DNA of 44,918 nt from a virus. A program made the position numbers and the translations under genes. Shown one piece after another: positions 8,088 through 21,770 of the stretch; positions within the stretch are counted from its first letter, which is position 1, and each line of letters opens with the position of its first letter. A model generated the notes under the pieces. It was given only the letters and a program-made list of their open reading frames with translations, ran no database searches and was not told the DNA's origin. Where the stretch lies: IMG/VR virus record IMGVR_UViG_3300020180_000032, positions 1 to 44,918 of that record; one strand, written 5' to 3'.

Positions 8088-9005
8088 ATGATTATTCGTG
8101 GCGCATTTTCCGATTTCTATATGACAACCATGCTCCCCGCCCTTCGGGGCGTGGTGTCGGCGCGGTACAAAGAGTACCCGACCCAGTGGGACCAGATTTT
8201 CGACGTGCAGACCAGCAACCGGAGCATCGAACAGATGTCGGAATTTTCCGGCGTCGGCCAGTTCTCCACCATCGGCGAAGGTCAGGCCGTGCGATTCGAC
8301 ACACCGATCCAGGGCTTCGACAAAACGTTTACGCACACCCGCTACGGATTGGGCATCCAGACCAGCGAGGATGCGGTCGAGGACGACAAGTTCTCGCTGA
8401 TCATGAAATCCCACGCGGATCTTGCGGTGTCGGCCCGAGACACACAAGAGATCGATGCCGCATCGACGATCAACAACGGGACCAGCGCGTCGTACCTTGG
8501 CCCGGACGGCAAGGCCCTGTTCGCGACGGATCACCCCCTTTACAAGGCGGGTGGCACCCAGAGCAATCTGGGTACGGCCGCCGATTTGGACATTGTGTCG
8601 CTGCAGATCGCACTCACCGACTACCGGACCCAGAAAGACCCAGCTGGCCGGATCATCAACGTGCCCTGCCAGAAACTCGTTGTCGCACCGTCGAACGAGT
8701 GGGTTGCCATCGAAATCACCAAGAGCTCGATGCGGCCCGACACCAGCAACAACGCAGTTAACGCTCTGAAGTTCGGATCGAAAGGAATGCCCACGCCGTT
8801 CGTGTGGAACTACCTCACCGATCCGGACGCATGGGGCTTGTTCGCGCCGCCGGCCGATACCGGCTTGGTGTGGTTCTGGCGTCGGAAGCCCTACTCGAAA
8901 CAATGGGCAGAAGAGGCAACCGAGACAGGCAACTACGCTCTCCGCTATAAGAAGTCCCACGGCTGGTACAGCTTCTACGGCACGTACTGGAACTCGGGCG
9001 CCTAA
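8088..9005 (+). CDS. Major capsid protein (305 aa)
   Basis: The size and sequence style match HK97-fold capsid proteins of the Mu gpT-like type. An N-terminal helix is followed by a beta-rich body with GKALFATDHPLYKAGGT near 141-157 (the typical LF-x-x-x-HP segment), then a conserved LVVAPSNEW segment near 201-209. The C-terminus is aromatic. It follows the decoration gene and ends just before a strong terminator, as expected for the most abundant virion protein. The ATG at 8088 has a weak ribosome-binding site. Confidence 0.88.
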   Translation: MIIRGAFSDFYMTTMLPALRGVVSARYKEYPTQWDQIFDVQTSNRSIEQMSEFSGVGQFSTIGEGQAVRFDTPIQGFDKTFTHTRYGLGIQTSEDAVEDDKFSLIMKSHADLAVSARDTQEIDAASTINNGTSASYLGPDGKALFATDHPLYKAGGTQSNLGTAADLDIVSLQIALTDYRTQKDPAGRIINVPCQKLVVAPSNEWVAIEITKSSMRPDTSNNAVNALKFGSKGMPTPFVWNYLTDPDAWGLFAPPADTGLVWFWRRKPYSKQWAEEATETGNYALRYKKSHGWYSFYGTYWNSGA

Positions 9006-9865: not shown

Positions 9866-11047
9866 ATGAACCGATTCACTTTGGCGCTGCTTTGTGCAGC
9901 GCCCTTTGTTTTTGCGCAGCCTTGGTTTGACAGCGGCAACGCGAAGAAGATCCAGGGTCGGCCGGTTTCGGCGACGGCTCCGACTAACGGCGAAACGCTG
10001 GTTTACAATTCCACCACGAAAACATGGGGTCCAGGCGCCGGTTCGGCAGCGGCACCGGCGGCCGGCACCGGCATATCGGTGGCGGGATCGACTGTCTCCA
10101 TTGACACCACCCTCACCGCGACAAGACCTGTGGTGCAGGCGGGCGCTGATGAGGTGTGTACGGACGCTGGCGGCGATGACACGTATGTGTGCACGCTTGC
10201 ATATCCGCTCGCAGCTTATCCCGCTGGCAAATGTTTTTCGCTCATCGTGACTACGGGGAACACTGGCACGGCAAGTGTGAATATGGGGCCGAGCGTCGTG
10301 AGTGTGTTCAAGGCAACTGGCGCGGCATTGTCGGACGGCGACATTGTAGCCAGTGGCGCAATTAATAGAGTTTGTTACGATGGCGCGGCCATGCGTCTCG
10401 CCGGTGGTGGAACATCGGTTTCCGCAACTCCTCCATACCTGACCATTGGAGGAATTCCGTATACTTCCGACGGATTTGCCGTTACATTACCCCCAACAAC
10501 GGGTTGGACCGCTGATAATTGCGGGGCCTGCACATTTACGACGAGCGGATTTAACGGCGCGATATTATTGGTTGGCGGAACGGCAAACCCAGCCATATTC
10601 AGCCAAACGCGAGCAATTGGTGCGACGAGAACTTTAATCGCAAAAATTGCCATGAGTGGGAATGCAAGTTCTTCAAGTACGAGCGCTTGCGGAATCGGCG
10701 TCGTGAACACCGCGCTAACGAAATATAGAATTCTAGGTCCGTTTGTCAGTAATACCGCTGCCGGAATCACTGATCTTTCTTTTGATCCGAACGCGACGTC
10801 GTTTAACTTTGAATCACCAATCGGTCCGGGTGATGGAACCACCGTTCTGAAGATTGTCATCGGCACAAACTACACAGCAAGTGTCAGCAATGACGGCGGG
10901 TTGAATTTTCAAGACGTGTACACAGCAACGTATTCCACTATCTTTGGTGGGGTCGTAGCCAACACCGATCTGTGGACGTTCACCAGCAAAACGAACGGGC
11001 AGGGATTTGCCACAAAGTGCACTTTGCTTTCCTGGAGCGCGGCCTAA
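9866..11047 (+). CDS. Tail-fibre-like protein with Sec signal peptide (393 aa)
   Basis: The N-terminus has a Lys/Arg-poor but clear signal peptide: MNR, a hydrophobic core to about residue 15, then VFA before Gln-Pro at about 17-19. After it come a low-complexity stalk (SATAPTNGETLVYNSTTKTW) and a fibre-type module (FKATGAALSDGDIVASGAIN, then a YDG motif), as in many phage tail fibres. A beta-rich C-terminal domain ends the protein. The mature part has eight cysteines, compatible with disulfides formed outside the cytoplasm. A good GGAG site precedes the ATG. A secreted fibre is unusual for a phage. Confidence 0.75.
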   Translation: MNRFTLALLCAAPFVFAQPWFDSGNAKKIQGRPVSATAPTNGETLVYNSTTKTWGPGAGSAAAPAAGTGISVAGSTVSIDTTLTATRPVVQAGADEVCTDAGGDDTYVCTLAYPLAAYPAGKCFSLIVTTGNTGTASVNMGPSVVSVFKATGAALSDGDIVASGAINRVCYDGAAMRLAGGGTSVSATPPYLTIGGIPYTSDGFAVTLPPTTGWTADNCGACTFTTSGFNGAILLVGGTANPAIFSQTRAIGATRTLIAKIAMSGNASSSSTSACGIGVVNTALTKYRILGPFVSNTAAGITDLSFDPNATSFNFESPIGPGDGTTVLKIVIGTNYTASVSNDGGLNFQDVYTATYSTIFGGVVANTDLWTFTSKTNGQGFATKCTLLSWSAA

Positions 11048-14000
11048 ATGCGATTCCTGCTACTGATTTTGTCCGTTTGCATCTACGCGCAGCCAACGGT
11101 AACGTGCACCGGGACAGACGCGCAGGGGGAACCGCGCGGTGCAAATTACATCGGTTCGACCTACGCGCAAATCAACTGCACGATTTCCGGCACTCCGTAC
11201 TATTCTTGGGTCGAATATGGAACATCGACCGGGGTTTATCCAGACCGGACGAAAACAGTGTCAAACATGGAGGGAAATGGTCAAACTCCCTCTGTACAAA
11301 TTCGTCTGGCCATGGGAGGACTGAAGGCCAGTACATTGTATTATGTGCGGGCTGGGGCGCAGCCAAACATCAACAACAGAACTGGAGCGGGTTATTCCGC
11401 CGAGTTCACTTTCACAACATTGGCCGAAAGTGCCGTTAGTCCGCCATATCCAACTATGGCCACGCCGTATACACCCGGAGCCATAAATACTGCCGGATAT
11501 ACGGTTGTACTTTTGAAACGTTGCACCTCAGGATTTGCATGTGCTGACGGCGCGGTTGCATCCTTAGGAATTCTGAATGAGGCGACGTTACAAGAAATAT
11601 ATAACGCGGCCACATACACAAATGGAACATTAATTCAGGCTCCCGTTGGGTTGGACACAAATGTCGAGTTTGTCGCCGCCGATGGAAACCGGGGATATAA
11701 CCTGCCGAGCAAAGCGGTGCAAGCAGGTAAGTCCGGGATAGACGATGCCACCCATAATTGGATTGTCACGGAAACCGCGGGCTGCGATACAACAGCGAAT
11801 TTCCCGCCGTTCGGAAGCCGGATTGATCCTACTTTCGCTGGGAAAACGTGGACTCTCAGGGCAACAACTCCGTCAAGTCGCGGCCAGCATTTTGAGGCCC
11901 CCAGCAATGCTGGGATAACGCACCATTATGCGTTTCGCTGCCTTAACCTGGAAACTCCCACGCCTGGAGCAACGGAGGCGAACCCATTCACGTTTAAGCA
12001 CGCGATCTATATCTCGCAAAACGCCCTGCCCGAACCGAATCTCAAATACTTTATTATCGATCGAGTCATCGTAGCCGGAACCACAGCGACGGGGCCGAAG
12101 CGTCAATATGGCGGCCTACATTCCGGCGCGGCATACACTTCGATTATTGGCTCCGACGTGAGAACGGGCATCTGGTTGCAGTGGCAGATGCCCACAGCGT
12201 CGATAACGATAGGTGGGACCGGAAACAGAACAATAACGCTCGGGTCCGGCAGTGGCGCCGAGATGAAAGTTACGGCGACATCAAATGTCCTGGGTTGCTC
12301 CAGTGGTGCAGTCGCCGTTGTAACCAGTTTGGGTGCAACCGGGAAATGGGTGCTGGCCATGACGCCAAGTGGGTGCAAGTTTTACTACAGCGCCGCTGCC
12401 GTTACGTTGTCTTCCTGTACAAATTGTACGGGATCATCTTTCGCCGGGGATCCCGATGTGGAAACAATCGCTATAGATGAGTTCCCATATTCCCGTGGGA
12501 CATTTTCAAGCGCAGGGGCCATGTCGCTCACTTACACAGCATCCGGTTTCGCCAGTCTTGGCGCGCCAACGTGGGGTGGAGGATCTTACGATTTGGCATT
12601 CGGCATAGAGGTGGGGTCCTACGACGTCGGACCGTTCACAATTCAAAACAATTACGTTGAGACGCCTGGGATTGGGTTTTACCTGGACTCCGGTTACGGT
12701 GGGTACGCCTACGACACGGTAAATGGGCTAACAAGAATGAACTGGTTCAATTTGCCCCCGCAATATCAGTGGAACCACGCATCGACAAACGGCCGGAATT
12801 ACAAGAACAGGCAGCACTGGGAAATAAAACGCGGTCGTCAATGGCTGGTAGTCGGGAATAGGTTTACGGGACTGACAGCCGAGACCAACGCGGGGCCGTC
12901 CATATTTCTATCCGGTCGCCCAAACTATTTGCCTAACATCGGCAATATGATCGCCGACATTGAGATCCGATCAAATGTGATTGCCCATGCCCCGCAGGGT
13001 TGGGACTGTTCCGTGAACAATCCGCGTTCAGCCGACCCGGTACCGAACGCAAGGATTTGGTTTCACAACAATTCCCTGTACTCGATCAATTCCTTTTTGC
13101 ATTCAGCGCCATCGGGGTCGAAGCTGAATTCCTCCTATTACGCGGCGTTTTCCGCGTGCCAGGATGTACGCATTAACAACAATACCCACGGACTGTCCGT
13201 CGGGCTCGGGCCGGTTATTTCTTTGATCGGCGGCGATGACCTTCGCGGCGGTAAACATGCCGTTACTGACAATGTGTTTTACGCGTCGAAAGGCGATTCC
13301 GGGTGTTCCAGGTTTCTTTTGATCAATGATTCGACTGCAATTAATACAACATACCCCAGTCTGCCCGCAGTGTCTGGCGCGGACGCAAAGGCGATTTGGG
13401 ACAGTTATTTTGCATCAGTCGCTGGCGGTGTGGTTACCGCTACCAATATTTTCTCGAACAATGTCATGGTCGGCGGGAAGTGTTCCGTCGATGCAAGCAA
13501 TATCACGGATCTATCGCAAGCTGACACAACGGCACTCGCATCCGCATGGAAAACCGGGAACTTATGGCCAGCGGGAAATACATTGGCTTTGCGCGAATCC
13601 GCGGCGGGATTCTCCACGGCCACGAATTCCATGTTGCCGGCATCCCCGTACTATCGGGCGTCGGCAAACAAATTTAATGCCATCGGACACAATCCGCAGG
13701 TGTTGACCCAAGAGATGGGTATCGTCACCGGCATCAGTATCTCGCCGGGAGCTACGTTCGTGACTGCCACCTATTTGGCCCCCGATACGCGGGCGTGCCG
13801 GTTGGACGTCACTGCCAATGGCGGGACTACTTGGAGCAGCACCACCGACGCGGGTGGGTCGCCCTACCGGGTGACCAGCGTGGCAGGGCTTTTGGTTTCG
13901 ACGGCGTACACGTGGCGGTTGCTCTGCTACTACCAACAGCTCAACGACGGCCGTCAGTGGGATGATTGGGCTACCAGCCAAATCACGGCGGGCAGTACCT

Positions 14001-14323
14001 CAACCCTTGCTTCCTCGGGTGGGTCTCGCACGGTCACCTATGTTCTGCCGGCCGTGACCGGGGCGAGCAAATATCAGATTGTGTTCACACTGGCAGACGG
14101 GACTACGTCCACGGCGACGTCCTGCACGGCATCACCGTGCACAGTTACATTTCCAGCGACGGCGGTTTTGATGCGGCCTAATATCTTGAGCGCGGCGGAC
14201 GCCGTACTTTTGACCGGAAGTTTGATCGCGGTTACACCAGGAACCGGCGGAGCGCCTTTAATCGCTTGGTCCGATTTAACTAACGCATGGAGCATGTACA
14301 CAGGAGCATGGAGCGCATTATGA
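11048..14323 (+). CDS. Large secreted fibre/beta-helix protein (1091 aa)
   Basis: The signal peptide is MRF, a hydrophobic run of about ten residues, then IYA before Gln-Pro. Next comes a fibronectin-III-like domain (about 15-125: WVEYGTSTGVY, GLKASTLYYVRAGA, FTFTT). A long central region shows strand-turn repeats ending in NN or NS (IRSNVIAHAPQG, IWFHNNSLYSI, DVRINNNTHG), which suggest a parallel beta-helix. The C-terminal region has one or two further Fn-III-like domains. There are about eighteen cysteines, several in close pairs. It starts with no gap after the previous stop (TAAATG). A receptor-binding, glycan-binding or depolymerising role is plausible, but catalytic residues are not identified. 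Confidence 0.7.
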   Translation: MRFLLLILSVCIYAQPTVTCTGTDAQGEPRGANYIGSTYAQINCTISGTPYYSWVEYGTSTGVYPDRTKTVSNMEGNGQTPSVQIRLAMGGLKASTLYYVRAGAQPNINNRTGAGYSAEFTFTTLAESAVSPPYPTMATPYTPGAINTAGYTVVLLKRCTSGFACADGAVASLGILNEATLQEIYNAATYTNGTLIQAPVGLDTNVEFVAADGNRGYNLPSKAVQAGKSGIDDATHNWIVTETAGCDTTANFPPFGSRIDPTFAGKTWTLRATTPSSRGQHFEAPSNAGITHHYAFRCLNLETPTPGATEANPFTFKHAIYISQNALPEPNLKYFIIDRVIVAGTTATGPKRQYGGLHSGAAYTSIIGSDVRTGIWLQWQMPTASITIGGTGNRTITLGSGSGAEMKVTATSNVLGCSSGAVAVVTSLGATGKWVLAMTPSGCKFYYSAAAVTLSSCTNCTGSSFAGDPDVETIAIDEFPYSRGTFSSAGAMSLTYTASGFASLGAPTWGGGSYDLAFGIEVGSYDVGPFTIQNNYVETPGIGFYLDSGYGGYAYDTVNGLTRMNWFNLPPQYQWNHASTNGRNYKNRQHWEIKRGRQWLVVGNRFTGLTAETNAGPSIFLSGRPNYLPNIGNMIADIEIRSNVIAHAPQGWDCSVNNPRSADPVPNARIWFHNNSLYSINSFLHSAPSGSKLNSSYYAAFSACQDVRINNNTHGLSVGLGPVISLIGGDDLRGGKHAVTDNVFYASKGDSGCSRFLLINDSTAINTTYPSLPAVSGADAKAIWDSYFASVAGGVVTATNIFSNNVMVGGKCSVDASNITDLSQADTTALASAWKTGNLWPAGNTLALRESAAGFSTATNSMLPASPYYRASANKFNAIGHNPQVLTQEMGIVTGISISPGATFVTATYLAPDTRACRLDVTANGGTTWSSTTDAGGSPYRVTSVAGLLVSTAYTWRLLCYYQQLNDGRQWDDWATSQITAGSTSTLASSGGSRTVTYVLPAVTGASKYQIVFTLADGTTSTATSCTASPCTVTFPATAVLMRPNILSAADAVLLTGSLIAVTPGTGGAPLIAWSDLTNAWSMYTGAWSAL

Positions 14324-16611
14324 GATTCATATTATTTCTGACGATTGGCGCTGGGCTATTTGGCCAGTTTGTCACGATTTTGTCGAGCGACACGCCAGCC
14401 GGGTCACTCACCCAACTCAACAAGAAGATGGCCGCGCAGGTTAACGCCGGGGTTCCCAGCGGGGTTTGTACGGCGGGCCTTGATTTTGCATTGAACTCTT
14501 TGACAAACGGGGTGTACATTTGCCCTGCCGGATCATGGGTGTTGTATGCGCCTGCTGCCGGGACAGTTACCAACGCCATGCTGGCCGGGTCCATCGACCT
14601 GACGGCTAAGGTAACTGGCGTCCTGCCGAATGCCAACACGACGGCAGCGACCGCGAATACAGCGTCGGCTATCGTGGCGCGTGATGGAAGCGGGAACTTC
14701 GTCGCAGGGACGGTAACCGCGGCGCTGACAGGCAACGTGACCGGGAACGTTACCGGCACCAGCGGATCGGCAACCGGTAACGCGGGGACATCCACAGCGT
14801 TAGCGGCGAATGGCGCAAACTGTAGCGCGGGGCAGTTCCCGCTTGGCGTGGACGCATCAGGGGCGGTCGAGACATGCACGTCGCTGCCAACGACGGTTGC
14901 CGGTACTGCAAACCAGATTACGGCATCGGCTTCGACGGGGGCTATCACTCTTTCTATCCCGACATCGCCTACGCTGCCAGGTACGACGACTGGCACGTTC
15001 AGCGGTAATCTCACGGGGAATGTAACGGGTAATGCTTCCGGCTCATCTGGTAGCACGACCGGCAACGCGGTGACAGCGACAGCGCTGGCGGCGAATCCAG
15101 CCGATTGCGCGGCAAACAATTTTGCAACGACCATCGCGGCGAACGGTGATTTGACATGCGCGCAGCCGTCTATCAGTGCTGGCGTATCCGGCCTCGCGGC
15201 GAACGTCGCCACGGCGCTCGCAACGCCATCATCGGCCAATCTCCTCGCGGCGCTGACCGATGAGACAGGGACAGGCGCGGCGGTGTTTGGCACTTCTCCG
15301 GCGATCACTACTCCGGCGATAACCGGCCTCCCGACTGGCTCCGGCGTGGCCTCGGCTGCGACAGCATCGACGCTTATGAGTCGCGACGCCAATGCCAACG
15401 CAAGCGCCAACTCATTTATTTATGGGTATGCGACGACGGCAACAGCGGCCGGCACGACTACGCTTACGGTATCCTCGGCCAACCAGCAATTTTTTACAGG
15501 GAGCACGACGCAAACGGTTACGTTGCCAGTGACTTCGACGATGGTTTTGGGCCAGCGTTACGTGATCCAAAATAACTCTACCGGTGTCGTGACAGTTCAG
15601 TCGAGCGGCGCAAACACAGTTACCGCTTTGCCTACGTTAACTTCAGCGACGTTTACCGTTATCCTCACCAGCGGCACTACGGCGGCTTCGTGGTCCTCGA
15701 ATTATGTGGCGGCTGGCGGCGGTGGTGGCTCTCCTGGCGGCTCTGGCACGGAGTTGCAATACCGGAGCGGCGCATCTACATTCGGCGGGCTGGAAAACTC
15801 CAGTAGGCCGAATTCTGGCGAATTGCGCCTTGGTACAACTCCGGCTGCGTCTGCCGATCGCGCTGTGTTTACCGTAGGGACGGCGGCGATTGCGGCCGGA
15901 TCGGCTAACGGGAATATGCTCGGGATTAATGCGCCGAGCGGTTTTGGTGGCGAGATAATTCAAGCGGAGTTAAACGGGGTAAAAGTATTTGGCGTGCATT
16001 CGAACGGCAATATTACCATGAAGGCAGGAAGCTCATTCTTTACAGATATTGGATCTGGTGGCCAGGTAAGCAATGCTGGTCTTATTTTTTCAAGCGCAAG
16101 CGTTGTCTCGACCATACGGAATCATGCTGGAGTTGCAAACAGTGATATGCGAATTATCGGAACCAACGGGACTACCAGTAGCAGGTTTTTTGCTCTCCAA
16201 GGTACCGGCGGTGGGACTCCGACTGATCAACTACGCATCAACGCTGATCAAAAAGCTGTCATGATTGGGCAAACTGCTAATACGACGAGCCTATCAAATA
16301 CAACGCTTTACCTAAGTGATCGCACTGCGACAACTGGAGTAACCCGCACAATGTCAGAAGCGGGCGCGGGGCAGTCTACGACGCCCATGGAAGAATGGCG
16401 GTCATATCACGCCACGCCTGGAAGCGGCACGCTGATAATGTCAATCGCTGGTGACGCAATTCCACAATGGGGAACAATCGCGGAACCAACATGCAACTCC
16501 GCCAATCGAGGCAAACTGGTCATGGTTCAGGGCGGCGCGGGGGTTCAGGACACATTCAGAATCTGCGCAAAAGACGCGGCGGACGCATACGCTTACAGGA
16601 CGATTTACTAA
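14320..16611 (+). CDS. Secreted repetitive tail fibre (763 aa)
   Basis: I chose ATG 14320 because it has GGAG six bases upstream and an ATGA overlap with the previous stop. It also gives a proper signal peptide: MRF, a hydrophobic core, then LFG before Gln-Phe. Earlier in-frame ATGs would bury the signal behind charged residues. The body is Ala/Gly/Thr/Asn-rich with repeats such as LTGNVTGNVTGTSGS and FSGNLTGNVTGNASG typical of trimeric fibre shafts. A later region (about 480-760) looks like a fibre head ending DAYAYRTIY. Eight cysteines are placed mostly as xCxx near repeat ends. Confidence 0.72.
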   Translation: MRFILFLTIGAGLFGQFVTILSSDTPAGSLTQLNKKMAAQVNAGVPSGVCTAGLDFALNSLTNGVYICPAGSWVLYAPAAGTVTNAMLAGSIDLTAKVTGVLPNANTTAATANTASAIVARDGSGNFVAGTVTAALTGNVTGNVTGTSGSATGNAGTSTALAANGANCSAGQFPLGVDASGAVETCTSLPTTVAGTANQITASASTGAITLSIPTSPTLPGTTTGTFSGNLTGNVTGNASGSSGSTTGNAVTATALAANPADCAANNFATTIAANGDLTCAQPSISAGVSGLAANVATALATPSSANLLAALTDETGTGAAVFGTSPAITTPAITGLPTGSGVASAATASTLMSRDANANASANSFIYGYATTATAAGTTTLTVSSANQQFFTGSTTQTVTLPVTSTMVLGQRYVIQNNSTGVVTVQSSGANTVTALPTLTSATFTVILTSGTTAASWSSNYVAAGGGGGSPGGSGTELQYRSGASTFGGLENSSRPNSGELRLGTTPAASADRAVFTVGTAAIAAGSANGNMLGINAPSGFGGEIIQAELNGVKVFGVHSNGNITMKAGSSFFTDIGSGGQVSNAGLIFSSASVVSTIRNHAGVANSDMRIIGTNGTTSSRFFALQGTGGGTPTDQLRINADQKAVMIGQTANTTSLSNTTLYLSDRTATTGVTRTMSEAGAGQSTTPMEEWRSYHATPGSGTLIMSIAGDAIPQWGTIAEPTCNSANRGKLVMVQGGAGVQDTFRICAKDAADAYAYRTIY

Positions 16612-16621
16612 GGACAACACA

Positions 16622-17101
16622 ATGAAATACCTACTATTACTCGCCTCGCTTGCCGTTTACGGCCAAGCCACAATCAATGCTCCGGCTATTACGCTGGACG
16701 CAACGGGATCAACACATGTTCTTGCCTGGATGGCCGGTCAAGGAACAGGCATCACGCAAACACTTGGATCCGATATCTCAGCGGTGGCAACATCAATCAC
16801 CCTTGTGTCCGCGCAGGGCATCGGGGCGTCGGCCGTGATCTCTATCGGCACGGAGCATATTAGTGTCACGAGCAAAGCCGGGAACGTTCTGACGGTGGTC
16901 CGCGGTGCAAACGGTACCACGGCGGCATCGGCGCTTTCCGGCGCTTCGGTAACGGAAATGAAGTACAAAAGCCTGAATCAACTCGGCAAGGATATTATTG
17001 TCGATGCACTACGGAAGATCGTTCGGCAACAAAGTCTGGCAGCGCCTATCGCTACGGCTGAAGCCAACGCGGACGTGGCGACGGTGGCGGCGGTAAAGTA
17101 A
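16622..17101 (+). CDS. Small secreted fibre-associated protein (160 aa)
   Basis: The signal peptide is MKY, a hydrophobic core, then VYG before Gln-Ala. The mature part holds a phage-type beta module (about 50-110: SAVATSITLVSAQGIG, SIGTEHISVTSKAGN, LTVVRGANGTT). The tailspike at 19371 has the same module. The C-terminus is helical. An AAGGA site precedes the ATG at 16622. It is the last gene of the secreted block, followed by 685 gene-free bases. Confidence 0.68.
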   Translation: MKYLLLLASLAVYGQATINAPAITLDATGSTHVLAWMAGQGTGITQTLGSDISAVATSITLVSAQGIGASAVISIGTEHISVTSKAGNVLTVVRGANGTTAASALSGASVTEMKYKSLNQLGKDIIVDALRKIVRQQSLAAPIATAEANADVATVAAVK

Positions 17102-17171
17102 CGCGCTCATCGCGGTAACGCCAACTCCATAACCAGATCTCAGCATTCTTTTTTTTTGCTCTTGTTCCCCA

Positions 17172-17191
17172 TTGATCACCTAGGAAACGGG
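17172..17191 (+). repeat. Diverged direct repeat, left copy
   Basis: TTGATCACC-TAGGAAACGGG matches 17726-17745 at 17 of 20 positions, 554 bases apart, near the two ends of the gene-free stretch. Confidence 0.5.
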
Positions 17192-17531
17192 GCAGAGCGG
17201 GCAGAGTTCAGAAGTCCTGTTCTCTGGACCGCTCCTGAAATGCTCACCTGAGGTTATCCGGTTGCTTTCGCGAGCCTTGGGGCGTCGATGGTACTCCCAA
17301 GTTTCGGGCTACTTTCGCCGGTCCATCCCAGCGCTCCCACTGTTCCCGATTAAGTCCTCAGTGCGGCTTTGGAAGGTCCCCTGGTGGCCGCTTAGCAGTG
17401 ATCCTGCGACCGTCGCCAGCGTTTTGACCGCTCAACGGATAAACCCAGCATAGACCATTTGACGAGGTGGAGCAAGTTTGCGATACTGAAATTGCGGCGC
17501 GCGGTGTTTTGACCACCACGCCAGATTCTCG

Positions 17532-17564
17532 AACCCCCGGCCCTACCCTGGAGCCGGGGGTTTT
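17532..17564 (+). terminator. Rho-independent terminator after the secreted-fibre block
   Basis: A 10-bp stem (17532-17541 AACCCCCGGC with 17553-17562) has an 11-base loop, and the stem ends in a TTTT run. It isolates the upstream secreted-fibre block from the promoter at 17752-17787. Confidence 0.75.
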
Positions 17565-17725
17565 CTGCGTTCGGAGGGTGGCTAGCCGATGGCGCCATCA
17601 AGGGGGCCGACAGACCAATTTCGGATTTTAACCAATATGTGTGCCCATTCAGAGGGAGTCATTGTTTTCCATGGAGTTTCCGGCTCTGGCCAAATTCTCC
17701 GAACGCGGAAGGCTTCTGTTTTCCC

Positions 17726-17745
17726 TTGATCACCCAGGGAATGGG
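17726..17745 (+). repeat. Diverged direct repeat, right copy
   Basis: This is the second copy of the 17172-17191 repeat. It ends 6 bases before the -35 element of late promoter copy 3. Confidence 0.5.
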
Positions 17746-17751
17746 TTACGC

Positions 17752-17787
17752 CTGAAAGCCACTGCCATGCCGGGCAATCTTCGAACG
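17752..17787 (+). promoter_or_regulatory. Late promoter element copy 3 (adaptor/tailspike unit)
   Basis: CTGAAA (17752-17757), 17-base spacer, then CAATCT (17775-17780) within GGGCAATCTTC (17772-17782). The predicted +1 at 17787 is the G of the GTG start codon of the next gene. There is no Shine-Dalgarno sequence in the 20 bases before that GTG. It stands in non-coding DNA after a terminator, which makes it the clearest promoter copy. Confidence 0.75.
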
Positions 17788-18689
17788 TGGCCCGCACATT
17801 TGGTTCCATCCAGTTCGAGCTCGCTCACTTCGCGAAAGCGAACCAACTCCCGGCTGTCGATGCGGAGCTGCTAAAGGCGTGGATCAACGAGGCGTACAAC
17901 AACATCCTGGACGCCCGCCAGTGGAAGGGGCTCGAAACCCGCACCGTTCTTCAGACCGTTGCCACCTACCGCACTGGATCCGCCGCCATCACCAACGGAG
18001 CCACGGCCGTAACCGGCACTGGAACCACATTTACCGCAGCCATGTCCGGCCGGCGGTTTCGCATCGCCGGAAGCCTGGAAACATATACATTCGCGTATCT
18101 GTCCGCCACCACGGCCACGCTTGATCGGCCATTCGAAGGCGCGACCATCACAGGCGGGTCCTTCGAAATCTTCGCCAACGTGTACGGCCTCCCGGACCGC
18201 GTGAAGCTGATCACATTGATGCGCAACACCCGCATCAACAAATACATGGAGCTGATCACCGAGGAGAATCTAAACCAGGCGGACGCCTCCCGGCTTTCCA
18301 TCGGCGAACCCTACTTTTACATGCCGGGCCCGCATTCGGGCGGCGAAGGCACGGCGCTTATCCGCCAGGTCGAAATCTATCCAGCTCCGGAAGTCGCGAT
18401 TGGACTGCTATACACCTATATCAAGTTGCCACTGGAGTTCAGCGGGTCAAACAATAGTACCGAGATCCTCGGATGGGTTGACCCTCGTGCCGTTATCGCC
18501 GGTGCGAAAGCCCTTATGCAGGCGCATGTAAAGGACTACGCCGGAGCGGCCGCCGAAAAGGCAATCCAATCCGTAGCCCGCGGCACAATGAATCAGGTCG
18601 AGACCGATACCGTCGGTCCATCGCAAATCAAGATGGCAAGCCGGTACACCGCGCACAGGCGTAGCCGAGGCCAGTGGGGGGCGGAGTGA
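17787..18689 (+). CDS. Head-tail adaptor/neck-like protein (300 aa)
   Basis: The N-terminus has a helix typical of phage adaptors (LKAWINEAYNNILDARQWKGLE, about 29-50). A small beta insert follows (about 60-130: ITNGATAVTGTGTTFTAAMSGRRFRI), then a second helical part. Such proteins dock under the portal. The start is GTG at 17787, predicted to be the first codon of a leaderless mRNA. The stop overlaps the next gene (GTGA). Confidence 0.65.
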   Translation: MARTFGSIQFELAHFAKANQLPAVDAELLKAWINEAYNNILDARQWKGLETRTVLQTVATYRTGSAAITNGATAVTGTGTTFTAAMSGRRFRIAGSLETYTFAYLSATTATLDRPFEGATITGGSFEIFANVYGLPDRVKLITLMRNTRINKYMELITEENLNQADASRLSIGEPYFYMPGPHSGGEGTALIRQVEIYPAPEVAIGLLYTYIKLPLEFSGSNNSTEILGWVDPRAVIAGAKALMQAHVKDYAGAAAEKAIQSVARGTMNQVETDTVGPSQIKMASRYTAHRRSRGQWGAE

Positions 18690-19378
18690 CGGTCGCCGAA
18701 CTCTTCGCCGCTACCCGCCAGCGAACAGACGATTCAGCCGCGTCCGGATCGCCCGCGACCGATGACGTTTACTGGACGCTGCCGGAGCAATACTGCGCTC
18801 TGAACGAAGCGCAGAACATGTTCGCGCTCATAACGCTCTGTCTCGAATCGACGGGCACGATTACTCTTTCCGCCGCCAAGTGCTTCTACGGAGTGCGTGG
18901 GTATCTGCCGGGGTTTTTGCTCCCGCTCCGGATCTCCGTGGGCGGGGCGAAGTTACAGCCGACGCGCCTTGTGGACTTGGACGCTAGGTACTTCGCCTGG
19001 CCGGACACACCAGGGACGCCTGCGAAGTATATGCAGGTCGGCATGAACCTGTTGGCCATCGTGCCACAACCATCCGCACTCAGCTCGGCCAGCGTTATCT
19101 ACGCCAAGGAGCCCAGCGTACTGGTTTCGACGGGGCAGGTTCCGGAGATTCCTCCGGAGTACCACTTGGCGCTGGCGAAGTACGCCTCCTATTACCTGCT
19201 GCAGAAACGCGGCGGCCAGTATCTGCAGCTGGCGGTCGCACATTGGAAAGAGTTTCTGGTGGACGCAGCACACTGCGCTGATTACGTTCGCCGGCGCAAC
19301 CGGGCGAGACAGTACGACAACGAACCGGCTGAAATTCGCTTGCCGGTAAAAAAAGAAGGATCCCAAATCGATGCCTAG
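18686..19378 (+). CDS. Second adaptor/tail-completion-like protein (230 aa)
   Basis: GTG 18686 is in a GTGA overlap with the previous stop, with a G-rich ribosome-binding stretch before it; a GTG at 18674 is the alternative. The N-terminal helix and later PPEYHLALAKYASYYLLQKRGGQYLQLAVAHWKEF segment resemble podovirus adaptor or gatekeeper proteins. The C-terminus is basic. The family is not certain. It overlaps the tailspike start by 8 bases. Confidence 0.6.
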   Translation: MTVAELFAATRQRTDDSAASGSPATDDVYWTLPEQYCALNEAQNMFALITLCLESTGTITLSAAKCFYGVRGYLPGFLLPLRISVGGAKLQPTRLVDLDARYFAWPDTPGTPAKYMQVGMNLLAIVPQPSALSSASVIYAKEPSVLVSTGQVPEIPPEYHLALAKYASYYLLQKRGGQYLQLAVAHWKEFLVDAAHCADYVRRRNRARQYDNEPAEIRLPVKKEGSQIDA

Positions 19379-21770
19379 TTTCCCCGCCACCGTCGCCACT
19401 GACGCGGATTTGCTTGTTGCGCTGGATAACGCCGTGACGGCGCTGGCTGCGGGGATCGGAAGCGGAGACACTTCGCTGTCTGTCGTGAGTGGCGCAGCGA
19501 TCGCCACCAACGTCGTCGTGACCATCGATAGCGAAATGATTTTTTTGGGCGCCGTGGCCGGGGTGAACGCCACGAGCTTGACGCGAGGCTACGGAGGCAC
19601 CACCCCAGCCGGGCATTCGTCCGGAGCCGCAGTCAATGTCAATGTCATTGCAAAGCATCACAACGCTATAAAAGACGAAGTGAAGGCGATCCAGACTTCG
19701 CTGGGCGCCGGGCTAATCAGCATGGGAGTTCGCGCGGCCGTGTATGCGTGGAGTCTGGCTGGGCCGGTTAATTTGACGGGCGGAGTACCCACTGTTATTT
19801 CTTTGTCGCCGTTTCCCTCGGGCATCACGGCGGCCGGCATCGCGCTTGGACACTATGTCTTGATAGCCGATAGCTTGGGCGGATATGAAAGCGTATTGAT
19901 TTCAGCAATCAATCCAGGCGTCTCCATCACCATCACGCCCGTGAGCAACCATACCGCAGCAAACTACAGTATCGGCAGCGCAAACGGCGGCATCCAGGAA
20001 GCCATCTACGCAACTACGGCGAACACAATACATGTGAAAGACGGAGTGACGATCATGTATCGCGGGATTGCCTGCGGACAGCGCCGATTGACATTCGCAG
20101 GGGCGGGGCACAATTCCAGTTACATCCGCATGGCGTTTCCGACGCAGGCCGGATTCTATTCGGACGCATTTGGTTTCCAGTTTCGTGACCTGACCATAAA
20201 AGCCTACGGCGCAGCGTCCGGAACGGCGACACATGCGGCTAGCGGAGTGTTAGCGTATGCGGCCGGAAGCCAGTGGGGCGCAGAGATTGTCGGACGGCAG
20301 TTCACCTACAACGGCGTTTCTGTAATTTGTACAGCGTTCAATTCGGCAACCAGTATCACCGTCTCCCCAGTTCCAGCAGTAGTTGTCTTGCCTGCGGCAT
20401 GGTCTGCGACGGCGCAATCCGCGGGCAAGGCGGCGCACCTCACCGGTTCCACGGTGTACCCGAACGGCGACGGCGACCTCGCGGCCACCGGGTGCGAATT
20501 CTACGGGCTTTACGACGTGTTCTATGGCGACTGGCCCGGTGGGTTCATCCGCCTCACCAACAACCTGTTCCGCGGAATCGTGCGATACGCGGCATACGGC
20601 AAAGGGACGAGCGCATGGGCGTGCCAGTACATCGGAAACTACCTCGACGGTCGAGATTCACCGGGCCTGTTCTGGATCGAGGGAACTCTCGGCGGAGGAA
20701 TAATTGCCGACAACTGGATGCAGGCATCTCTCGCCCATATTGTGCTTAATGGGGTAACCGGAGCGATCAACGAAACGCTCATCGTGGGGAATATTCTAGA
20801 CCAGGACACGGCTGCTACGGCGTGCGTGGTGATCAACAACTCCGCAAATTGCATCCGTATCGCTGAGAATTTCATTGCCGGTTTCGATATCGGCGTGCTT
20901 ACGCAGGCAGCCGAGAACGTCATGATCGTTAACAACCGATTCCGGGTTAGAGGCAATGATGCGGGGATCGTCATTGGCGGCGCGACGGCTGACAGAATCT
21001 CCGTGCAAGGCAATGACTTGCAGTGTGAGGGCAATGCCATGAACTACGCGATTCAGGTGAGTCCCACGGCTGGTTCGAATATCACAGTGAAAGGGAATAC
21101 CGGCGACGGAACGGCTTCGGTATCGGCCTTTATCGGGGTGATAGGGGCGTTCACCGGCTTGACCATTGACAGTAATACGCCGGGCTTGAATTATGCGAAG
21201 TTGATTAACGATGTGGGTGTGACAGGCGGTGGAGAGGTAGCCTGTTTTGCCAACCGGGCGCGGAATATTCCGGCGATCACACTGGCATCGGCTGAGACAA
21301 TCACACTACCGCTGGCAGACGAAACCCAGGTCATCGCGTTGACCGGGACAACAACGATTAGAGCCATGATCGGTGTGTCGGCCAGGGCTGGCAGCAAGCG
21401 GATATTCGTAATGGGCGGCGCGTTGAGCTGGGCTCTGCCAAGTTCCATCAGCATCACCAGTGCCACGAATGCAAATCCCGTTGTTTTCACGGTGGCGGCG
21501 GGGCATGGGTTTGCGACCGGCGAAGGCCCTGTTATTACGATCTCAGGCGGTACCGGCGCATGGACGGTGGTGAATGGGAGTTTCGTTGCAACCATTCTAA
21601 GTCCCACTACTTTTAGCATTGCAGTAAATTCTACGGCGATTGGAGCCGTTGCCGGGACGATTGTTTACGTGCGATCGTCTAACTCTATTGGCAGGGCTTT
21701 TGGCCCAACCGTGGCTGGCCAGATTGTCCAGATGATCAAATACTCCGACAACATTTGGTACCCACTGTGA
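19371..21770 (+). CDS. Tailspike with beta-helix (799 aa)
   Basis: The N-terminal module (about 25-100: SGDTSLSVVSGAAIATNVVVTIDSE, LTRGYGGTTPAGHSSGAAV) is shared with the secreted protein at 16622. The centre (about 250-610) shows a run of strand-turn units with Asn at turns (IIADNWMQ, LIVGNILDQ, IRIAENFIAG, MIVNNRFRV, ISVQGNDLQ), typical of right-handed beta-helix tailspikes that bind or cut surface polysaccharide. A C-terminal beta module with GHGFATGEGPVITISGG is common in phage fibres. No signal peptide is present, unlike the upstream fibre block. The ATG overlaps the previous gene by 8 bases. Confidence 0.75.
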   Translation: MPSFPATVATDADLLVALDNAVTALAAGIGSGDTSLSVVSGAAIATNVVVTIDSEMIFLGAVAGVNATSLTRGYGGTTPAGHSSGAAVNVNVIAKHHNAIKDEVKAIQTSLGAGLISMGVRAAVYAWSLAGPVNLTGGVPTVISLSPFPSGITAAGIALGHYVLIADSLGGYESVLISAINPGVSITITPVSNHTAANYSIGSANGGIQEAIYATTANTIHVKDGVTIMYRGIACGQRRLTFAGAGHNSSYIRMAFPTQAGFYSDAFGFQFRDLTIKAYGAASGTATHAASGVLAYAAGSQWGAEIVGRQFTYNGVSVICTAFNSATSITVSPVPAVVVLPAAWSATAQSAGKAAHLTGSTVYPNGDGDLAATGCEFYGLYDVFYGDWPGGFIRLTNNLFRGIVRYAAYGKGTSAWACQYIGNYLDGRDSPGLFWIEGTLGGGIIADNWMQASLAHIVLNGVTGAINETLIVGNILDQDTAATACVVINNSANCIRIAENFIAGFDIGVLTQAAENVMIVNNRFRVRGNDAGIVIGGATADRISVQGNDLQCEGNAMNYAIQVSPTAGSNITVKGNTGDGTASVSAFIGVIGAFTGLTIDSNTPGLNYAKLINDVGVTGGGEVACFANRARNIPAITLASAETITLPLADETQVIALTGTTTIRAMIGVSARAGSKRIFVMGGALSWALPSSISITSATNANPVVFTVAAGHGFATGEGPVITISGGTGAWTVVNGSFVATILSPTTFSIAVNSTAIGAVAGTIVYVRSSNSIGRAFGPTVAGQIVQMIKYSDNIWYPL

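Follow-up and report, generated by a model that had tools for sequence, protein, structure and literature searches.

Four consecutive genes with Sec signal peptides

The virus contig IMGVR_UViG_3300020180_000032, analyzed here over its whole length of 44,918 bases (the window), is a podovirus genome by gene content. Between its capsid gene and its adaptor genes sit four tightly packed genes, separated by gaps of about 0-10 bases and named here after their start positions, 9866, 11048, 14320, and 16622. The product of each starts with a predicted Sec signal peptide exhibiting a basic n-region, a hydrophobic core, and small residues at positions -3 and -1 of a signal peptidase I site. The signal peptides, all encoded on the + strand, read MNRFTLALLCAAPFVFA^QPWF for 9866 (9866..9916, cut before Gln18), MRFLLLILSVCIYA^QPTV for 11048 (11048..11089, cut before Gln15), MRFILFLTIGAGLFG^QFVT for 14320 (14320..14364, cut before Gln16), and MKYLLLLASLAVYG^QATI for 16622 (16622..16663, cut before Gln15). 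These N-termini are as described in the initial annotation of this DNA, which had also placed each cut before Gln (4/4). A rule-based Sec scorer, which accepted 12 out of 15 E. coli signal peptides and one out of six negatives (the membrane protein LacY), returned exactly these four among the 38 window genes at a threshold of >=4.0, the next best gene scoring 3.1. The same four, and no others, were accepted among all 121 open reading frames of at least 90 residues on both strands when a Shine-Dalgarno sequence was required. The scorer also agrees that the neighboring tailspike gene 19371 is devoid of a signal.

The open reading frames listed at 14287 and 16451 use upstream in-frame starts. The true starts are likely 14320, judging from a GGAG motif upstream and a 4-bp overlap with the preceding stop, and 16622, preceded by AAGGA. 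Three other origins of the signals were considered and rejected: wrong start codons, given the Shine-Dalgarno match at each start and the repetition of the pattern in relatives; lipoprotein signals cleaved by signal peptidase II, given the Gln at +1 in all four and the absence of a lipobox Cys; and chance, given the outcome over the 121 reading frames. As a side observation, the signal-peptide codons of 9866 harbor a GC-rich hairpin with a perfect 8-bp stem and a T-rich run after it (9883-9903); the regional count of such sites is not above chance.

Features of the encoded proteins

Gene 9866 (9866..11047, + strand) encodes 393 residues comprising an N-terminal domain with the motif NARxxQGR (NAKKIQGRPVSATAPTNGETLVYN), a YDG module, and a third part. 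The YDG module (10112..10405; residues 83-180) is a common phage-fiber module and carries two cysteine pairs, C98/C109 and C123/C170. Beyond residue 180, the structure is predicted with a predicted local distance difference test (pLDDT) score below 50, and a fold search with this part gave no matches. Gene 11048 (11048..14323, + strand; 1091 residues) starts with a domain resembling FN3 and the N-terminal domain of purple acid phosphatases, followed by a repeat region that is probably a β-helix. A search for a fiber module in 11048 found none, the FN3-like N-terminus being the only part that matched. Neither 9866 nor 11048 has a relative among 50,697 records of isolated phages. Gene 14320 (14320..16611, + strand; 763 residues) displays an NVTGNVTG shaft and ends with a domain, PTCNSANRG..VCAKDAADAYAYRTIY (16462..16608), which contains a cysteine pair and recurs on signal-bearing proteins in L030, L115, L116, and G027.

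The last gene, 16622 (16622..17101, + strand), encodes only 159 residues, with one fiber-attachment-type domain (16745..16966; residues 42-115) and a C-terminal helix. The domain is common to the signal-less tailspike-type protein 19371 (19371..21770, + strand), which serves as an internal control, having the same N-terminal domain and no cysteine pair in it. The core of the mature 16622 domain is predicted at pLDDT >90, and its best structural matches are virion chains of phage fiber, spike, or baseplate type (VIA Z 9-11.7; 9in6 at 11.7, 8rk3 at 10.7, 8jov at 10.7, 9n71 at 10.2, and 4ru4 at 9.2), unrelated ATP-synthase entries scoring about 8. The 8jov match covers the ordered N-terminal 116 residues of GP4, a putative tail fiber seen in a portal-tail complex. 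Support from sequence profiles is weaker than from the fold (8rk3, E 0.0003; 8jov, E 0.24). The predicted model of 16622 thus folds like known phage fiber-attachment domains, a likeness that extends to the VP1 capsid chain (9in6) and the JBD30 baseplate (8rk3). The match is at the level of the fold (18-24% identity), and 16622 differs from these chains in having a signal peptide and in lacking a receptor-binding part.

The initial annotation had taken all four products for tail-fiber-type proteins, at least two of them with clear fiber modules. This stands for 9866 and 14320 by their sequence modules, as it had proposed, and for 16622 by its fold; for 11048 it lacks support, given its N-terminus and the lack of a fiber module. 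Structure prediction, which it had recommended, was confident for the 16622 domain and not for the distal part of 9866. Its estimate of many cysteines in the first three proteins (about 8, 18, and 8) matches the mature chains, which contain 8, 18, and 8, with none in 16622.

Cysteine pairs accompany the signal peptide

Two module families occur both with and without a signal peptide. In the tailspike N-terminal domain family, a cysteine pair occupies two fixed alignment positions in five out of six signal-bearing members and in none of seven signal-less ones (Fisher p=0.0047), and the cysteine content of the whole protein is also higher with the signal (p=0.0025). The predicted cut coincides with the start Met of the signal-less members. 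The signal state has changed at least two or three times in the tailspike tree, in which the signal-less L174, devoid of both cysteines, nests within a signal-bearing clade (support 95/94). In the second family, the fiber module of 9866, which is common in phage contigs, all three copies with a signal have the pair CTDAGGDDTYVC (C98/C109), and the 11 distinct copies without one all lack it (p=0.0027). The independence of this test is limited, two of those three copies having been search queries. The p-values of both families are optimistic, because homologues were treated as independent while the tree supports only two independent contrasts. C98 and C109 lie on neighboring strands, 97-100 and 106-109, in the secondary structure of the predicted model. 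Regarding the second pair, C123/C170, both cysteines are present in the window protein and in L270, and both are absent in L003. An even number of cysteines is found in 10 out of 12 complete cysteine-containing proteins (p=0.019), which lends weak support.

Cysteine pairs that come with the signal are the pattern predicted by oxidative folding outside the cytoplasm, and these two natural experiments, as read from the sequences, indicate that the signals work. Since cysteine pairs and signal go together in two module families, the proteins are very probably exported and oxidized; the oxidation outside the cytoplasm suggested in the initial annotation thereby gains independent sequence support.

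Signal-bearing fiber genes in other phages and prophages

A search for relatives in other phages, also recommended at the outset, found the trait in podovirus relatives, in a contractile phage, and in unrelated Acidobacteriota prophages. Podovirus relatives, found with the major capsid protein as query, carry signal-bearing fiber genes among their neck genes in arrangements that differ from that of the window. Three are found in L003 (capsid protein 51% identical) and one or two in each of L005, L028, L030, L031, and G076; L006 and L034 have weaker candidates, and L004 has no fiber insert at the corresponding place. The trait is therefore retained at capsid-protein identities of only about 45-51%. 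The signal-bearing spikes of L030 and G076 are pectate-lyase-type tailspikes, matching Pfam PF12708 and the PHROG tailspike and pre-neck-appendage families, and their N-terminal domains are homologous to those of 19371 and 16622. They thus resemble the pectate-lyase-fold tailspikes and the phi29-type gp12 pre-neck appendage, from which they differ by the signal peptide and the conserved cysteine pair of the N-terminal domain.

Outside the podoviruses, an unrelated Acidobacteriota prophage (G329, L159:7895-12833) exhibits three signal-bearing genes in a row, each with its cut before Gln, and another (G102) has one signal-bearing fiber gene. In three inspected Acidobacteriota genomes (G335, G319, and G164), a short prophage-like element on chromosomal contigs (L151:5810-15865, L154:6132-20000, and L155:5667-20000) comprises a capsid-like gene, a head-tail adaptor, TerL, and a signal-bearing fiber-like protein of about 1550 residues. 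This element may be domesticated; part of the sequence of its large protein occurs in 39 out of 396 genomes sampled from Acidobacteriota. Scanning viral sequences with 11048 as the sole query gave no homologue at first; one in a further phage contig surfaced only after an alignment-based search. That contig belongs to a phage with a contractile tail (sheath match, E 4e-81), in which a signal-bearing pair sits in the tail module, near the sheath and neck genes, between a fiber-like gene and the tail completion gene, its second gene being a partial 11048 homologue.

A cassette common to phage and host polysaccharide loci

Near-full-length homologues of 11048 are found in the Acidobacteriota chromosomes G095, G100, and G044 (28-33% identity, E <1e-90), and a partial chromosomal one in G061. 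Each is preceded by a fiber-like gene with a signal-like start. The first gene of this host cassette is homologous to the C-terminal part of 9866 (residues 199-392): in G044, this gene and 9866 match at their ends (31%, E 9e-12), and the gene order is that of the phage. In G027, one gene has a module in common with 9866 and ends with the C-terminal domain of 14320. The pairs of G100, G044, G095, and G061 have as neighbors genes for a flippase, an MBOAT protein, glycosyltransferases, a sulfotransferase, and an asparagine synthase. Altogether, signal-bearing fiber-like genes lie inside five chromosomal polysaccharide loci (L288, L289, L290, L291, and L160), four of which hold the two-gene cassette. 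The host cassette therefore shares with the phage genes its homology (to the C-terminal half of 9866 in one genome and to nearly the full length of 11048), its order, and the kind of signal; it differs in being chromosomal, beside flippase and glycosyltransferase genes. Present in a podovirus, a contractile phage, and host loci, the cassette occurs in unrelated phages as well as in host surface loci. The 9866 and 11048 genes would thus travel as a cassette common to phages and host polysaccharide loci, with transfer possible in either direction. Separately, two Acidobacteriota genomes harbor stand-alone signal-bearing fiber-like genes of about 440 residues in non-prophage surroundings (L156:8247-9572 and L157:9244-10545).

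Glutamine after the cut

By a like-for-like measure, 18 out of 24 phage fiber signals (75%) permit Gln at +1, compared with 13 out of 38 signals (34%) of one Bryobacterales genome, the host sample being small and the phage set partly gathered by hand. In that genome (L069-L078 and L095-L109), Gln follows the best site of eight out of 37 signals, the 13 out of 38 being those where it is possible. Under the so-called Q-rule of Bacteroidetes, cleavage by signal peptidase I leaves most substrates with an exposed Gln that turns into pyroglutamate; the description of this rule does not mention Acidobacteria (PMC5837995). In all four window proteins, Gln directly follows the predicted signal peptidase I site, and the top capsid relatives of their phage fall in Acidobacteriota metagenome-assembled genomes (MAGs). 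The signal peptides of this one Bryobacterales genome seem to favor Gln after the cut, which would be a Q-rule-like habit outside Bacteroidetes.

Genomic surroundings and likely host

The window further comprises TerL (1551), a portal or adaptor gene with a weak match (3368), the major capsid protein (8088..9005, + strand), an SU10-type adaptor (18674..19378, + strand) that identifies the surroundings of the signal-bearing genes as the neck module, a second SU10-type adaptor (21755), an endolysin (22450), a large virion protein (23527), a second one assigned by its size and position (30355), and a holin (34775). From the last signal-bearing gene to the next structural gene extends a 685-base gap with no assigned gene (17102-17786), containing a 34-nt imperfect direct repeat whose copies are 554 bases apart; no Rfam match was found in the gap at 17.1-17.8 kb. 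The capsid relatives in bacterial genomes lie mostly in Acidobacteriota MAGs, several of them Bryobacterales, so the host of this soil phage is probably an acidobacterium; one of the top seven is labeled Streptosporangiaceae and is perhaps misbinned. No closely related cultured phage of Acidobacteriota was found.

Relation to known systems

The folding of tailed-phage fibers is assumed to take place in the reducing cytoplasm. Sec-exported virion proteins made with signal peptides are familiar from the coat proteins of filamentous phages; these phages, however, extrude through the membrane, whereas the window encodes a tailed double-stranded DNA phage with a holin and an endolysin. The nearest precedent for the trait is found in Porphyromonas gingivalis phages (proposed Nixviridae), which have five genes of unknown function with Q-rule signal peptides; there too the predicted cut exposes Gln, and the authors infer use of the host secretion system (PMC10367356). 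Those genes have not been reported as fibers and belong to phages of a Bacteroidetes host, whereas the present ones are of fiber and spike types, linked to Acidobacteriota, and display cysteine pairs that track the signal. Target proteins of phage diversity-generating retroelements have been reported without signals, the absence of a signal peptide being read as support for a phage origin (PMC6199706). In the literature covered, which is incomplete, no report of signal-bearing tail fibers as a trait of a phage group was found.

Where the exported proteins may act

The reading that we favor, with a probability of about 0.45, is export followed by oxidation in the periplasm and attachment to virions at lysis. 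The podovirus structural operon would yield four proteins, three of which are composed of tail-fiber modules, and the host Sec machinery would move them to the periplasm; signal peptidase I would cleave them before Gln. Folding with disulfide bonds would ensue in the periplasm, a step well supported by the sequences. Less certainly, lysis would mix cytoplasm and periplasm and let the proteins attach to progeny particles, which would then bear disulfide-hardened fibers and spikes. Some spikes and fibers, such as those of P22 and T4, can attach to finished particles in vitro. Attachment to progeny is the most likely fate given the attachment-type N-terminal domain of some of the proteins and the position of their genes among neck genes, to which the interchange of signal-bearing and signal-less spikes can be added.

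Several observations weigh against this reading. The closest relative, L002, has its signal-like stretch, MWKRFRRWLALMIYASLFLVSA^Q, some 129 codons into an open frame (L002:8724-9434), and no clear ribosome site goes with it. The window (through 19371) and each relative read to the end of the tail module (L003 and L030) also encode a signal-less fiber, and the exported ones therefore need not be receptor-binding proteins. No phage structural genes were found within the 14-20 kb read around the host cassettes, so the 9866-11048 pair can work without a virion. Cysteines are absent from 16622 and from three other signal-bearing proteins, and the two independent contrasts between signal and no signal on strong branches are too few for a phylogenetically corrected test.

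Part of this evidence suits a close rival, a real if lesser possibility in our judgment, in which the proteins are exported and never join the virion. As surface or matrix proteins, they would remodel or cut host polysaccharide, aid release, or block receptors against competing phages. Among the options named in the initial annotation, addition to particles after lysis and action on the matrix or surface are thus both still live. The 9866-11048 pair matches a same-order, signal-bearing pair in the polysaccharide loci of G100, G044, G095, and G061, 11048 is an FN3 and repeat protein without a fiber module, and signal-less fibers are encoded as well. However, signal-bearing and signal-less forms of one tailspike family interchange while keeping the same attachment-type N-terminal domain, and a signal-less spike has no evident exit route before lysis. 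Moreover, the genes lie inside the neck or tail module in the podoviruses and in the contractile phage, and 16622 is little beyond an attachment-type domain.

That the genes are host-derived cargo of the lysogenic-conversion type, encoding adhesins displayed on the lysogen for its benefit, is improbable. The homologous cassettes and the stand-alone signal-bearing fiber-like genes of host chromosomes would fit it, as would Lom, a known signal-bearing phage gene located between tail genes (PMC12309495). Against it, weak scans turned up no integrase in the set of window genes covered and, for the four genes, no convincing separate promoter; these genes are packed in the structural operon. Finally, a role of the hydrophobic N-terminus as an anchor that stays uncut, or as a segment inside the virion, is very unlikely: the internal position of the stretch in L002 would suit this, whereas the -3/-1 sites are typical and mostly followed by Gln, more commonly than in the host sample, signal-less spike relatives start at the would-be cut, and cysteine pairs appear only where the signal is present.

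Extending the favored reading, attachment at lysis, to the group, we tentatively propose, at somewhat short of even odds, that the tailed phages of Acidobacteriota build their virions in two separate compartments. The cytoplasm would yield heads and tails, and the periplasm, by way of Sec, disulfide-hardened fibers and spikes; the two sets would be joined only at lysis, and the exported cassettes would be exchanged with host polysaccharide loci. If true, a phage group routing its fibers through the periplasm would change ideas of how such particles are assembled and would explain the disulfides of their fibers. The trait also gives a handle on the phages of Acidobacteriota, an abundant soil phylum, and the cassette common to phage and host polysaccharide loci ties phage spikes to the biology of the host surface.

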